A stretch of DNA of 64,000 bases from Rhodoplanes tepidamans (GTDB lineage Bacteria > Pseudomonadota > Alphaproteobacteria > Rhizobiales > Xanthobacteraceae). This document shows, piece after piece, positions 4,051-7,361 of the stretch (position 1 is its first letter; each line of letters opens with the position of its first letter). The stretch covers positions 124,001 to 188,000 of the forward strand of contig NZ_JAUSUJ010000011.1 of the NCBI RefSeq assembly GCF_030813915.1. Reading direction: 5' to 3'. A model generated the notes under the pieces. It had not been told where the DNA came from. It made no database searches and saw only the letters and a list, made by a program, of their open reading frames with translations. Both the position numbers and the translations under genes were made by a program.

Positions 4051-4848
4051 TCAGGGCGTGCGGGGCTTCTTCAGCACGAACACGTCCATGACCCAGCCGT
4101 GCGCGTCGCGGCAGGCCTGCCGCTCGCGCGCGATGGTGTCGATCACGTCGCCGACGCGGCCGGCGACCAGCCGCTCGTCGGCGGTGCCGAGGCAGGCGCC
4201 CCAGAACACCTCGTGATCCGGATCGACCGCCCGCAGGCCGTCGCCGCGGTCGAGCATCACCACCACGGTCTCGGCGCCCGCGGTTCCGGCGACATCGGCC
4301 GCGCCGGCGGCGAGGCGGCGACCCGTCGTGATCAGGATCGAGCCGCCGATCTCGGCGAGCGGGATGCGGTGCTTCGCGGCGAGCGCCTGCACGCTGCCGA
4401 TGCCGGGGACGACGTCGAAGGCGAGCGCGATCTCGCCCGCCGCTTCGACCCGGTTCAGCACCCGGATGGTGCTGTCGTAGAAGGCGGGATCGCCCCACAC
4501 CAGGAAGGCGCCGCGCTCGCCGTCGCCGAGCTCCTCGCGCAGCAGCCGCGTGAACGTCGCGGCGAGGCCGGTGTGCCAGTCGGCGACGGCGCTGCCGTAG
4601 TCGCCGGTGTCGCGCCGGGCCGGCACGGCATAGGCGACGGTGCGCAGCGGCCGGTCGCCGGCGAAGCGGGCGCAGATCGCCTGCCGCACCTGCGCGAGCT
4701 CGGCCTTGCCGGCGCCCTTCTCGGGAACGAACACCACGTCGGAGCGGCGGAGCGTGTCGATCGCCTGCAGGGTGATCTGGTCGGGATCGCCGGAGCCGAT
4801 GCCGACGACCGACACGGTGCGGACGGGGCGGGGAGGGGGTTGTGTCAT
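4051..4848 (-). CDS. cobF: Precorrin-6A synthase (deacetylating)
   Basis: A 265-residue SAM-dependent methyltransferase of the tetrapyrrole methylase fold. It begins VSVVGIGSGDPDQITLQAI, the characteristic CobF N-terminus, and contains FLVWGDPAFYDSTIRVL and a VVPGIGSVQALAA motif. CobF methylates C-1 and extrudes C-2 as acetate in aerobic cobalamin synthesis (precorrin-5 to precorrin-6A). The start codon overlaps the stop of the upstream gene (ATGA at 4845-4848), so it is the third gene of the riboswitch-headed operon. Length is normal for the family. No other cob genes lie in the window. Confidence 0.93.
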   Translation of the reverse strand: MTQPPPRPVRTVSVVGIGSGDPDQITLQAIDTLRRSDVVFVPEKGAGKAELAQVRQAICARFAGDRPLRTVAYAVPARRDTGDYGSAVADWHTGLAATFTRLLREELGDGERGAFLVWGDPAFYDSTIRVLNRVEAAGEIALAFDVVPGIGSVQALAAKHRIPLAEIGGSILITTGRRLAAGAADVAGTAGAETVVVMLDRGDGLRAVDPDHEVFWGACLGTADERLVAGRVGDVIDTIARERQACRDAHGWVMDVFVLKKPRTP

Positions 4849-5717
4849 GCGGCCGGGGTCTCCTCGAAGGGGCGCGCCGAAACCAGCGGGCCGAGCGCGG
4901 TCCAGACCTCCGCGGCCCACAGCTCCGCCGCGCGCTCGTCCGCCTCGGCCGTGTGGCCGGGGCGGGCCGGCGGACCGGGGCGCCACGTCACGCGCCGGCC
5001 GAGCCGGCGCGCCGTCTCGAAGTCGACGCTGCCGGGCAGCGGCGCGAGATCGACGATCACGGCGCGGTCCGGCAGGCGGGCGAGGATACGCCCGTCGACG
5101 AAACTTGTGAGATCGGTCGAGACGACCAGATCGAGCCGCGGCGCCAGCGCCGGCAGGTCGGCGAGGCGGTGCGGCACCGCGCCTTCCGCCTGCAGGCGTG
5201 CGTGATCCTCGGCGGTCGCGGCCGTGACATGGGTGCGGGCGCCGTGGGCGATGAGCCGGCGGACGAGTGCCGCGGCGTGCGCGTCCTCGCCGAGCACGCA
5301 GGCCTGCCGTCGCAGGTCGGCCGGGCCGCCGGCCTCGCGCCCGGCCGCGGGAGCGACCACCGGGATGCGGGGGCCCGGGCAGCCGTGCCCGAGCGTCATC
5401 GGCGGCGGGTCGGGTTCGGTCGTCAGCCCGGGCCCCGTGGCAGCACACCGGCCGGAGCGCCGCGCCGCGGCGTCCGGATGCGCGCCGCGCAGGACGATCC
5501 AGGTCGCCGCCGCCTCGAGCCAGCGCAGCACGGCACGGCCGAGCCGCTCCCGCAGGCCGGCCGCCCGGGTCCGCGGCCGCGGCGGTCGCGGCGCGATCGC
5601 CGCCGAACGCCGCGTGTGAAAGCCGGCGGCTCCGCCGGCGCGCGGCATCGCCGCCGGGGAGCCGGCCTCGCCGCCGCGGTCGGCGGCGCGGGCGGCGCGA
5701 TCGGGCACGGTGTCCAT
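4845..5717 (-). CDS. Unrecognised Rossmann-fold protein, resembles dipicolinate synthase subunit A C-terminal domain
   Basis: This 290-residue protein has a disordered-looking Arg/Ala/Pro-rich N-terminus (about 1-130). A compact domain follows, with a degenerate nucleotide-binding start (ACVLGEDAHAAALVRRLIAHG), then LVVSTDLTSFVDGRIL and VIVDLAPLPGSVDFETARR, and a late PGPPARPGHTAE. The order D-L-A-x-x-P-G-x-x-D-F followed by P-G-x-x-A-x-x-T-A is that of DpaA/SpoVFA-like dehydrogenases, but the glycine-rich loop is weak. It overlaps the upstream stop as TGATG (5715-5719) and cobF as ATGA, so it is made with them. A role in corrin metabolism or redox sensing is only inferred from position. Confidence 0.6.
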   Translation of the reverse strand: MDTVPDRAARAADRGGEAGSPAAMPRAGGAAGFHTRRSAAIAPRPPRPRTRAAGLRERLGRAVLRWLEAAATWIVLRGAHPDAAARRSGRCAATGPGLTTEPDPPPMTLGHGCPGPRIPVVAPAAGREAGGPADLRRQACVLGEDAHAAALVRRLIAHGARTHVTAATAEDHARLQAEGAVPHRLADLPALAPRLDLVVSTDLTSFVDGRILARLPDRAVIVDLAPLPGSVDFETARRLGRRVTWRPGPPARPGHTAEADERAAELWAAEVWTALGPLVSARPFEETPAA

Positions 5718-6970
5718 CAGCGCACCCAGAACCAGCCGGGTGGGATCTCCGCCGGACGGCGCGGCGGTTCGGTCTCGGATCGGCCGGCCGGGCGGCCTGC
5801 CGGAGACTGCCGCGCGGCCCGCCGCCCGAGCAGGTCGGCGGCCTTCTCGATCGCGTCGGGCGCCGTGGTGAAGGCGGCATCGGCGCCGACGATCGCGGCG
5901 AGGCTGTCCGGGCGGTCGAGCGCGATGCGGCCGCCGACCAGCACGACGAGATCGCGGGCGCCCGCCGCGGCGCGGGCGGCCCGGATGTGCGCGGCGACGC
6001 CGTCGAGCGCGGCCGGATGGCGGGCGATGTCGCCGAGCAGCAGCACGAGCACGTCGCAGGGCTCCGCCCGCACCGCCGCGCACAGATCCGCGGCGTCGTG
6101 CGGGAAGGCGACCTCGACGCACCAGCCGGCATCGCGGAAGACGTCGCCGACCAGCGTCACTCCGAGCACGCTCGGCTCCGCCCGGTGGGCGGCGACCAGC
6201 GCGGTGCGGGCGGCGGCCGCGGGCGATCCGTCCGGCGGCACCGCCGCGCCGAGCCGGCGGGCGCCCTGCTGCAGATGCGCGAGCGCCAGCGTCGTCTCCA
6301 TGTCGCAGCAGTGGTCCGCCTCGCGCCAGTCGCCGATCCGCCGCGCCGCCGGCTCGATGATCGCGCCGCGCAGCGTCCGCAGGTCACGGCCGGCGCGCAG
6401 CTCGCCGTCGAGCAGCGATTCCACGGCCCGGCCCGCGCCGGCCATCGCGCAGGCGGCGAGGTCGGCCACGATGGCGTCGAGGTCGCTGCCGCCCGCCTCC
6501 GGCGCGTCGGCGCCGCGGCCGAGGATCTGCAGGTCGCCGAACATCCGAACCGGCGTCGGGCTTTCGCCGAGCAGCTCGGCGGCCGCCAGCCGCGGATCGG
6601 TGCGCGCCGCGCGCCAGATCGCCCGCACCGCGTCGGGCGGTCCTTCGAGCCAGTGGAAGACGGTGCCGCGGTCGTGCAGCAGCAGCCCGCCGATGCCGAG
6701 GCCGCGGAGCCGCTCGCCCGTTGCCGCGAGCCCGGCCTGCAGGGCGGTCGCGTCGGCCGCCGCCGCCCGGGTGCGGAAGGCGAGCGAGAGCAGGGCGCCG
6801 GGCGGCGGCGGCTCCGGTTCCGCGGTCGGATGGAGTGGGGCGAGTGCGTCTTCGGCCCGCGGGCCCTCGGCGCGCGGGCGTCCGGCCCCGGTGCCGGGAG
6901 CGCCGGAGCCTCGCGGATCCGGGGCTCGCGCACCCGGTCCTTCGGTCGAATCGGTGGTGTCGGTCGGCAT
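5717..6970 (-). CDS. AppA/PpaA-like regulator: degenerate BLUF domain plus B12-binding (SCHIC-type) domain
   Basis: A 417-residue protein with a Pro/Gly/Glu-rich N-terminus (1-57). Residues about 58-150 follow the BLUF plan: SLAFRT, GIGGLLLHDRG, VFHWLEG, DPRLAAAELL, VRMFGD. Residues about 175-395 form a helical plus Rossmann B12-binding unit, with W in GDWREAD, VFRDAGWCVEV and LVVLVGGRI. In photoactive BLUF proteins the flavin contacts are Tyr, Asn, Gln and a late Trp/Met. Aligned by eye, here they read Phe, Leu, His (VFHWLEG for VFFQWLEG) and Asp. The usual E/D-x-H-x-x-G cobalamin ligand motif reads E-P-S-V-L-G, with no axial His. AppA and PpaA/AerR relatives control tetrapyrrole and photosynthesis genes. 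First gene after the cobalamin riboswitch. Confidence 0.75.
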   Translation of the reverse strand: MPTDTTDSTEGPGARAPDPRGSGAPGTGAGRPRAEGPRAEDALAPLHPTAEPEPPPPGALLSLAFRTRAAAADATALQAGLAATGERLRGLGIGGLLLHDRGTVFHWLEGPPDAVRAIWRAARTDPRLAAAELLGESPTPVRMFGDLQILGRGADAPEAGGSDLDAIVADLAACAMAGAGRAVESLLDGELRAGRDLRTLRGAIIEPAARRIGDWREADHCCDMETTLALAHLQQGARRLGAAVPPDGSPAAAARTALVAAHRAEPSVLGVTLVGDVFRDAGWCVEVAFPHDAADLCAAVRAEPCDVLVLLLGDIARHPAALDGVAAHIRAARAAAGARDLVVLVGGRIALDRPDSLAAIVGADAAFTTAPDAIEKAADLLGRRAARQSPAGRPAGRSETEPPRRPAEIPPGWFWVR

Positions 6971-7081
6971 CGAGATCCCCGCCTCGCTGCGGCGGGGAGA
7001 GGGCGGGCGCAGGGACGCGGACGCGCAGGACGGCGCCCACCCATGCGTTCCGCCGGTGCACCCCGCCCGTGAACGTCGTCC

Positions 7082-7261
7082 GTCGTGGCAGGTCTCCTGG
7101 CTCGCGGGTCGTCACCCCTGTCTCGCCTTCCCGACGGCATCCCGTCAGTGGCTTCGGTCGACAGCGGCTCGCCGCTCACAGTTGCGGGGGCAGCTCCGGA
7201 TTCGCGCGACGCTCACCGGATTCCCTCTTCGCCTCCGGGATCGCACCCGGAGGACCACGAC
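7082..7261 (-). promoter_or_regulatory. Cobalamin (AdoCbl-type) riboswitch
   Basis: Read on the minus strand, the element contains the B12-box core GCTGCCCCCGCAACTGT (complement of 7178-7194), the upstream AGGGAATCCGGTG (complement of 7214-7226) and the 3' GCCAGGAGACCTGCC (complement of 7087-7101), in the canonical order. The closing helix P1 is formed by 7255-7261 with 7082-7088 (GTCGTGG/CCACGAC). It lies 111 nt upstream of the BLUF/B12-domain gene and therefore should repress the whole three-gene operon, including cobF, when cobalamin is abundant. Confidence 0.96.
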
Positions 7262-7361
7262 CCGGCAATTCTCCACCCCCGGAGGCCGGCGTCAAGCCGG
7301 AGCGCGGCAATCTGCGGTGGTTCCGCGTCAGGGTTGGTAGCGAAGGCGGTGGCGCCTTCGG

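Follow-up and report, generated by a model that had tools for sequence, protein, structure and literature searches.

Purple bacteria control their photosystem in a B12-dependent manner via AerR, and bacteriochlorophyll synthesis uses the B12-dependent enzyme BchE. Cobalamin riboswitches precede nrdAB and metE, and in such systems a B12-independent isozyme is made when B12 is low. Two types of regulator are closest to the locus described here: AppA of Cereibacter/Rhodobacter sphaeroides, a PpsR antirepressor with the domain order BLUF, linker, four-helix cap, SCHIC, and the AerR/PpaA proteins, which are cobalamin-binding CrtJ/PpsR co-regulators. The photochemical residue set of BLUF domains includes Asn. 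Roles in photochemistry are described for Tyr and Gln (excerpt of PMC10799861) and, in the BLUF protein BlsA, for Tyr, Gln, and Trp (excerpt of PMC6695109). The cobalamin motif of AerR is ExHxxG, with His as the lower cobalamin ligand (excerpt of PMC6199135), and the heme ligand of AppA is His284, AppA showing that heme can be held at a shifted ligand position (excerpt of PMC9144470). HP1 (Rru_A0625) of Rhodospirillum rubrum is PpaA/AerR-like, lacks the cobalamin motif, and still controls photosynthesis (excerpt of PMC10734443); the terms BLUF and riboswitch each occur 0 times in that paper. MetE is described as a B12-independent substitute under low B12 (excerpt of PMC11260477). No AppA/AerR-type regulator under riboswitch control was found in the literature searched.

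The window, i.e., the whole 64,000-nucleotide stretch of DNA from the purple phototroph Rhodoplanes tepidamans that was analyzed, contains a cobalamin riboswitch followed by three genes, with the following features.

7070..7274, minus strand: cobalamin (AdoCbl-type) riboswitch aptamer, RF00174 (cmscan, 122.6 bits, E 2.9e-30, model positions 1-189 of 189)
7045..7077, minus strand: post-aptamer element that forms a hairpin and probably belongs to the expression platform (32/33 bases common to the riboswitch of genome G412)
5717..6970, minus strand: gene 1, AppA-type BLUF-SCHIC protein, 417 aa (Pfam, phmmer, AF2 model with Foldseek)
6530..6763, minus strand: BLUF domain of gene 1 (Pfam, residues 70-147)
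5801..6508, minus strand: four-helix cap and SCHIC/B12-binding Rossmann region of gene 1 (about residues 155-390)
6161..6178, minus strand: E265-P-S267-V-L-G270, site of AerR ExHxxG, His replaced by Ser (alignment)
4845..5717, minus strand: gene 2, short DpaA-like Rossmann protein, 290 aa (NCBIfam, phmmer, family alignment)
5370..5390, minus strand: GHGC(P/S)GP motif of gene 2 (family alignment)
4051..4848, minus strand: gene 3, cobF, precorrin-6A synthase (deacetylating), 265 aa (TIGR02434, 290.6 bits)

The riboswitch is the sole Rfam match above the gathering score (31.5 bits) within the window and covers the full length of the model; its span is slightly wider than the 7082-7261 recognized in the first-pass annotation. 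The stop/start overlaps described there were also found, as TGATG at 5719-5715 (genes 1 and 2) and ATGA at 4848-4845 (genes 2 and 3). The position of the riboswitch suggests that it controls all three genes, which are probably co-transcribed, the overlaps suggesting that gene 1 shares a transcript with cobF; AdoCbl would switch this operon off. Whereas the isozyme systems (nrdAB and metE) place an isozyme under such a switch, this riboswitch leads a regulator. We favor, with a probability of about 0.5, the reading of a B12-scarcity operon: B12 would be sensed by the RNA, and the protein of AppA type would be a dose-controlled partner of PpsR. The observations behind this reading are the riboswitch, the gene layout, the domain architecture, the residue losses, and the recurrence of each pairwise link.

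Gene 1 had been annotated as a protein with a B12-binding fold. This domain is present at scores below the Pfam cut-offs, and an N-terminal BLUF domain had been overlooked (PF04940, 34.7 bits, above the cut-off of 25). The B12-binding/AppA_SCHIC domain scores 23.6 and 23.3 bits, the latter against a SCHIC cut-off of 28.6, which the ortholog in G412 also misses at 26.8. Its location C-terminal to BLUF is supported by phmmer (4e-14) and Foldseek matches to AppA. With the AF2 model of gene 1 (pLDDT 70.6, fairly confident in both domains), the top four Foldseek matches were AppA without its Cys-rich region (4.5e-18 to 1.1e-16), and AppA, which has the same domain order, is the best PDB match across nearly the whole length. 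Whole-chain superposition on AppA is poor (TM 0.41-0.43, rmsd about 20), so that support extends to the order of the domains and to each domain by itself, not to the interdomain arrangement. The SCHIC domain is homologous to that of AerR (7te2).

In a tree with 83 SCHIC domains, drawn from 89 loci and four further sequences (duplicate rows L115, L152, and L168 dropped; BLUF-only matches L013, L014, and L019 gave no usable SCHIC stretch), gene 1 groups with AppA (95/86), but this join is not trusted because the AppA branch is very long and the composition of gene 1 is unusual. The five BLUF-bearing rows form no closed group of their own. A plasmid collection yielded 153 records matching gene 1, none of which (0/153) covers 80% of the query, i.e., no full-length BLUF-SCHIC relative. 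Some gene 1 matches extend partly into the BLUF range, starting at residue 99 (G133), 107 (G423), 113 (G390 and G354), or 122 (G548); the G133 and G423 frames, read by eye, contain no BLUF domain.

Gene 1 differs from both regulator types at the residues that hold their cofactors. In alignments, the BLUF positions show Tyr replaced by Phe (residue 65, which sits just ahead of the Pfam BLUF stretch), Asn by Leu, and Gln by His, with Trp lost, while the photochemical residues are intact in 3/3 BLUF relatives aligned. ExHxxG is kept in all five aligned relatives, including the PpaA/AerR encoded beside ppsR in the same genome, whereas gene 1 has Ser267 in place of the ligand His. Glu265 aligns with the heme ligand His284 of AppA, leaving that His absent, and, unlike the Cys-rich region of AppA, residues 392-417 of the translation contain no Cys. 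Gene 1 is also unlike AppA in having a B12 riboswitch ahead of it and a DpaA-like gene and cobF behind, and unlike AerR/PpaA in its additional BLUF domain and in not adjoining ppsR. HP1 shares the loss of the cobalamin motif but adjoins ppsR. With BLUF Tyr, Asn, Gln, and Trp and the AerR ligand His all lost, light or B12 sensing by the window protein itself is doubtful, and its activity would be cofactor independent.

The association of riboswitch and regulator is not confined to the window. G412, a genome of another family, encodes a BLUF-SCHIC ortholog of gene 1 (39% identity, 8.0e-51), located roughly 106 nt downstream of a cobalamin riboswitch of 84.2 bits. The two riboswitches share the post-aptamer element, and the other 22 riboswitches compared reach a best match of only 16-24 of its 33 bases. 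The G412 ortholog retains all four BLUF residues and ExHxxG, and cofactor loss is thus not general among riboswitch-linked members. A core motif that recovers 17/18 known riboswitches matched 6 of the 67 loci retrieved with gene 1 and scanned, of which cmscan confirmed G412 only; no riboswitch motif lies within about 1.5 kb of flank of the BLUF-B12 proteins L150 and L151, and a family-centered search around G412 (3 genomes) found G412 alone. The genome sets of the separate searches overlap, and their counts are not additive. The complete three-gene order was seen only in the window genome, although each pairwise link recurs. The composition originally singled out, a B12 riboswitch leading an AppA/AerR-class gene and cobF, holds for the window, and its riboswitch-regulator part recurs in G412.

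The first-pass annotation proposed nested sensing of B12 by protein and RNA. In a reading of this kind, the riboswitch would determine how much gene 1 protein is made, and that protein would still sense cobalamin or heme and/or light before acting on photosystem or B12 genes. The fold of the SCHIC region resembles AerR, AppA SCHIC, and other cobalamin photoreceptors (Foldseek), AppA offers the precedent of heme held from a shifted position (excerpt of PMC9144470), and nesting is plausible in G412, with its ligand and BLUF residues intact. For the window protein, Ser267, Glu265, and the four substituted or lost BLUF positions argue against the proposal, which we consider unlikely here.

Gene 2 had been called DpaA-like, a description that suits only its NAD(P)-binding half. 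Residues 138-250 match the NCBIfam models of DpaA/SpoVFA (dipicolinate synthase subunit A), far below the family cut-offs (TIGR02853/NF006162, 53.5 versus 319.65 and 55.1 versus 261 bits), and phmmer finds 2rir at 2.3e-08. Unlike DpaA, the N-terminal half consists of a helix and a GHGC(P/S)GP linker, whose G, H, G, C, G, and P are invariant across the 7/7 aligned members of a short family; the NAD(P) glycine motif is weak (VLGEDAHA). Each of the seven members belongs to a unit headed by a riboswitch, in two cases following nrdAB, and no riboswitch motif occurs within about 1.5 kb of the 15 other DpaA-like matches (0/15). In Rhodopseudomonas, nrdAB and nrdD lie behind cobalamin riboswitches. 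The plasmid collection contained no gene 2 relative. An AF2 model of gene 2 (7 sequences, pLDDT 52.5) was too poor for structure searching and was dropped. A role as a CobK replacement is unneeded, as the main cob cluster already contains a gene for a CobK-like protein (L145 13294-12491, recognized in the sequence by eye rather than by HMM).

The assignment of gene 3 as cobF stands, with a TIGR02434 score well above the cut-off of 195.8. CbiD and CobF are both encoded in G000, and CobF would serve as a second C1-methylase alongside the CbiD encoded in the main cob cluster. A longer DpaA-like gene adjoins cobF in 4/4 matches of genus g77 (four genomes, in another family), with bchE-like and B12-transport-like genes nearby; three DpaA-like matches of other genera (G479, G494, and G515) do not adjoin cobF at the loci examined. 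A riboswitch serving cobF only was rejected as the whole story, since riboswitches recur with BLUF-SCHIC genes and with gene 2 at loci where cobF is not adjacent.

These associations bear on the possibility that the operon serves B12 supply only, with genes 2 and 3 (a corrin-synthesis helper and CobF) as its core and gene 1 a decaying or recruited passenger without a role in photosynthesis. Elsewhere, a DpaA-like gene and cobF stay adjacent with no gene 1 present, 6/7 riboswitch-linked members of the short gene 2 family also lack gene 1, and the known cofactor residues of gene 1 are gone. Nevertheless, the reading frame of gene 1 stays open along all 417 codons, its model is fairly confident in both domains, and its riboswitch link, down to the post-aptamer bases, is common to a genome of another family; we consider the B12-supply reading unlikely. 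That gene 1 regulates cob or transport genes rather than partnering PpsR is less probable still: the overlaps suggesting co-transcription with cobF and the other riboswitches of the genome, which precede cobQ, cobW, BtuC-like, and TonB-receptor-like genes (the BtuC and two of three TonB matches score under curated cut-offs), would suit such a regulator, but Pfam finds no DNA-binding domain in gene 1, and the structurally characterized proteins most closely related to it are PpsR/CrtJ co-regulators.

In the favored B12-scarcity operon, plentiful adenosylcobalamin would keep the three genes off, and low adenosylcobalamin would allow all three proteins to be produced. The gene 1 protein would then act on PpsR, which the window genome encodes (523.2 bits) along with the separate canonical PpaA/AerR. 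Because its chromophore and ligand residues are lost, its activity may be set mainly by its amount, with B12 sensing shifted from protein to RNA. Gene 2, as a member of a B12-starvation family behind cobalamin riboswitches, may have a related role, and CobF would raise corrin synthesis. The putative link to photosynthesis is the B12 requirement of BchE (788.5 bits in this genome). More tentatively, an ancestral riboswitch-BLUF-SCHIC unit, intact in G412, may gate a light/tetrapyrrole-sensing antirepressor by B12 supply, and the window protein may have shed its sensors to become a B12-independent AerR substitute produced solely during B12 shortage, in parallel with the B12-independent ribonucleotide reductases that stand behind switches of this kind.

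The locus suggests that B12 supply feeds directly into the control of photosynthesis. If true, an AppA-type regulator under riboswitch control would connect that process to intracellular B12 by a direct genetic route, and the window and G412 form a natural comparison of an apparently sensor-less version with an intact one. The Rossmann family associated with B12 starvation, found with nrdAB and, in its longer form, with cobF near bchE, offers a lead to a new B12-related function.

The first-pass annotation, made from the sequence alone, placed a cobalamin riboswitch ahead of three overlapping genes, the third of them cobF, and both points are borne out by the following features:

7274-7070, minus strand: full-length cobalamin riboswitch (Rfam, 122.6 bits, E 2.9e-30)
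6970-5717, minus strand: gene 1, BLUF plus B12-binding/SCHIC protein (Pfam)
5717-4845, minus strand: gene 2, DpaA-like, NAD(P)-binding half (profile and phmmer matches far below family cut-offs)
4848-4051, minus strand: gene 3, CobF (290.6 bits; cut-off, 195.8)

The riboswitch is the sole Rfam match above the gathering score in the whole window. Gene 1 starts ~100 nt downstream, and stop and start codons overlap between genes 1 and 2 and between genes 2 and 3. The DpaA-like assignment of gene 2 holds for the NAD(P)-binding half of dipicolinate synthase A, at scores far short of family membership. In gene 1, the B12-type fold (B12-binding/SCHIC, below the Pfam cut-off) had been recognized, but the BLUF domain, which exceeds its cut-off, had been overlooked.

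Comparison of gene 1 with PDB sequences (phmmer) ranks AppA first (4e-14), with AerR at 1.5e-05. Foldseek searches with an AF2 model (mean pLDDT of 70.6, built on a six-row alignment) place AppA at ranks 1 to 4 (4.5e-18 to 1.1e-16) and AerR fifth (7.4e-11); the AppA structures matched comprise BLUF and SCHIC, crystallized without the Cys-rich region. Because whole-chain superposition on AppA is poor (TM, 0.41-0.43; rmsd, about 20), the match supports the single domains and the sequence in which they follow one another, but not how they are packed together. The architecture of gene 1 is thus that of AppA.

The sensing residues differ. BLUF photochemistry is attributed to a conserved Tyr and Gln in the abstract of PMC10799861. 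In an alignment with the ortholog in G412, a genome of another family, and two BLUF-B12 proteins of another family, gene 1 replaces Tyr with Phe, Asn with Leu and Gln with His and lacks the Trp, while the other three proteins keep all four residues. AerR binds cobalamin through the motif ExHxxG, in which His145 is the lower ligand (passages of PMC6199135 and PMC9144470); gene 1 has ExSxxG (E265-P-S267-V-L-G270), whereas the His is kept in all five aligned relatives (the G412 ortholog, both BLUF-B12 proteins, and one PpaA/AerR-like protein each from G412 and the window genome). In AppA, heme is ligated by His284, which aligns with Glu265 of gene 1. Because of these changes, gene 1 is classed neither as an AppA photoreceptor, whose BLUF-SCHIC architecture it shares but whose BLUF residues are substituted or absent and whose His284 is replaced, nor as a cobalamin-binding AerR, the motif His being Ser267. 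Gene 1 has the architecture of AppA but apparently neither of its sensing sites.

Full-length relatives of gene 1 are rare. Matches in 60 relatives and 296 family genomes are mostly to SCHIC, with a few to BLUF, and none of these genomes yielded a second match spanning both domains; among 297 genomes of the order, one further full-length relative was found, in G412 (39% identity over residues 13-414). This ortholog (start, 8246) lies directly behind a cobalamin riboswitch (8571-8353 of its locus, L142; 84.2 bits), and tblastn of the 16.8-kb G412 contig found neither CobF nor a relative of gene 2. The 33 bases following the aptamer are identical at 32 positions between the two leaders, compared with best matches of 16 to 24 in 22 other riboswitches, and both proteins end in a similar PGWxxV tail. 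This element contains a GTG (window, about 7061-7059; L142, 8345), followed in both leaders by HRRNA codons, in gene 1's own frame in L142 and a different frame in the window; the stretch is possibly a chance product of conserved RNA or an upstream ORF.

A control scan used a riboswitch core motif that recovers 17 of 18 known riboswitches and covered 67 loci obtained by searching with gene 1, including ~1.5 kb of flank (less where a contig ended). Six loci matched, and cmscan of 20 loci, including all six, confirmed a riboswitch at the G412 locus only. A search of 385 genomes of the class had yielded the two BLUF-B12 proteins, and their flanks lack the motif. Given the cmscan confirmation and these motif-free flanks, the riboswitch link covers two of four BLUF-B12/SCHIC loci and no SCHIC-only locus among those scanned. 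In the literature searched, most subscription journals lying outside it, no description of an AppA/AerR-type regulator under riboswitch control was found. Among the matches listed, AerR-centred papers contained no riboswitch mention and “B12 riboswitch” was absent from PpsR, AppA, BLUF and Rhodoplanes literature; the sole match for BLUF with cobalamin riboswitch concerns riboswitch identification.

Gene 2 matched 22 places in 296 genomes of the family. Seven (E of 3.0e-29 or better, with a GHGC(P/S)GP motif) form a short family found in riboswitch-led units in 7/7 cases, a grouping that was not blind, being defined once riboswitches beside five members had shown. Four members lie directly behind the riboswitch (G002, G115, G213 and G165), two follow in the order riboswitch-nrdA-nrdB-gene 2 (G204 and G165; NrdA and NrdB confirmed by HMM in one, L069), and the seventh is that of the window. 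The next match, in the congener G001 (2.8e-27), is close in score yet, by eye, a full-length DpaA-like protein. No riboswitch motif occurs within ~1.5 kb of the other 15 places, and 14 of these have no RF00174 match. Two peptide patterns derived from the short-family alignment, a scan that could miss more divergent members, found six loci in 84,980 species genomes, the same six as the nonwindow members: Rhodopseudomonas palustris JSC-3b and XCP, R. pseudopalustris DSM 123 (two), R. faecalis JCM 11668 and “Rhodovulum” sp. PH10. PH10 belongs to the genus of the window genome, which we take to be Rhodoplanes.

In Rhodopseudomonas, cobalamin riboswitches lead genes for B12-independent ribonucleotide reductases, nrdAB and nrdD, at L066 (G204; called by eye) and L069 (G165; called by HMM). 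Full-length DpaA-like proteins at five loci (L070, L071, L072, L074 and L075) make up a distinct subgroup, with no riboswitch found; judged by eye, their neighbors include amidohydrolase-like genes and others that look catabolic. A SECIS_3 element (L064, 13835-13893; 83.7 bits) probably lies within a G002 gene that was identified by eye as encoding a selenoprotein formate dehydrogenase.

The short-family alignment matched in 8 of 297 genomes of the order. The DpaA-like proteins of g77, a genus of another family, are encoded directly upstream of cobF (4/4), with cobF products 46.5-47.5% identical to window CobF; they are of the longer DpaA form, outside the short family. Within the loci examined, cobF does not adjoin the DpaA-like matches of G479, G494 and G515. 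Loci L182 to L185 place genes for B12 import next to ones for corrin synthesis and for a bacteriochlorophyll enzyme that depends on B12. The L182 neighborhood encodes BchE (767 bits) and, led by a riboswitch, a BtuC-like permease that scores below its cut-offs; in L185 the riboswitch and the btuCDF-like, bchE-like, DpaA-like and cobF genes all run in one direction, and in L182 to L184 a gene on the opposite strand lies between the bchE-like and the DpaA-like gene (neighbor genes of L183 to L185 identified by eye, not HMM). Rhodopseudomonas G115 has a riboswitch, then cobT, then cobF, so a riboswitch ahead of cobF is nothing unusual. The suggested co-occurrence of all three genes behind a riboswitch was found only in the window genome; its parts recur as riboswitch-gene 1 in G412, riboswitch-gene 2 in the short family and DpaA-like-cobF in g77.

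CobF and CbiD both act at C1 of the corrin ring. Because the window genome also encodes CbiD (399 bits; main cob cluster, C8:227321-228367), its CobF is a second predicted C1-methylase. Each of the four congeners examined for both families has just one of the two enzymes: CbiD, with no CobF over the cut-off, in G001, G003 and G004, and CobF without CbiD in G002. The main cob cluster also has a weak, short cobalamin riboswitch match (L145, 785-890, about 106 bases; 35.3 bits), possibly degenerate.

In the window genome, PpsR/CrtJ (523.2 bits) is encoded next to a canonical PpaA/AerR; the genome also encodes BchE (788.5 bits) and a B12-dependent ribonucleotide reductase, and it has eight cobalamin riboswitches, one of them weak. 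Such riboswitches usually reduce expression at high AdoCbl, and the operon is therefore expected to be on when B12 is short. We propose that B12 shortage would turn the operon on through the riboswitch and that the gene 1 protein would bind PpsR in the manner of AppA and AerR; with its own cofactor sites seemingly lost, the signal would lie in the amount of protein that the RNA allows. Gene 2 would be a B12-starvation protein, and CobF would raise corrin synthesis. HP1 of R. rubrum, which controls photosynthesis despite having no cobalamin motif (abstract and passages of PMC10734443), is a precedent for a sensor-less member, as gene 1 appears to be. Nested RNA and protein sensing of B12, as first read from the sequence, is half right: the sites of the window protein are apparently lost, but a riboswitch does precede an AppA/AerR-type regulator and recurs in G412. 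The earlier observation is correct and of greater interest than it claimed, and the G412 ortholog, with its residues intact, would be the true nested sensor.
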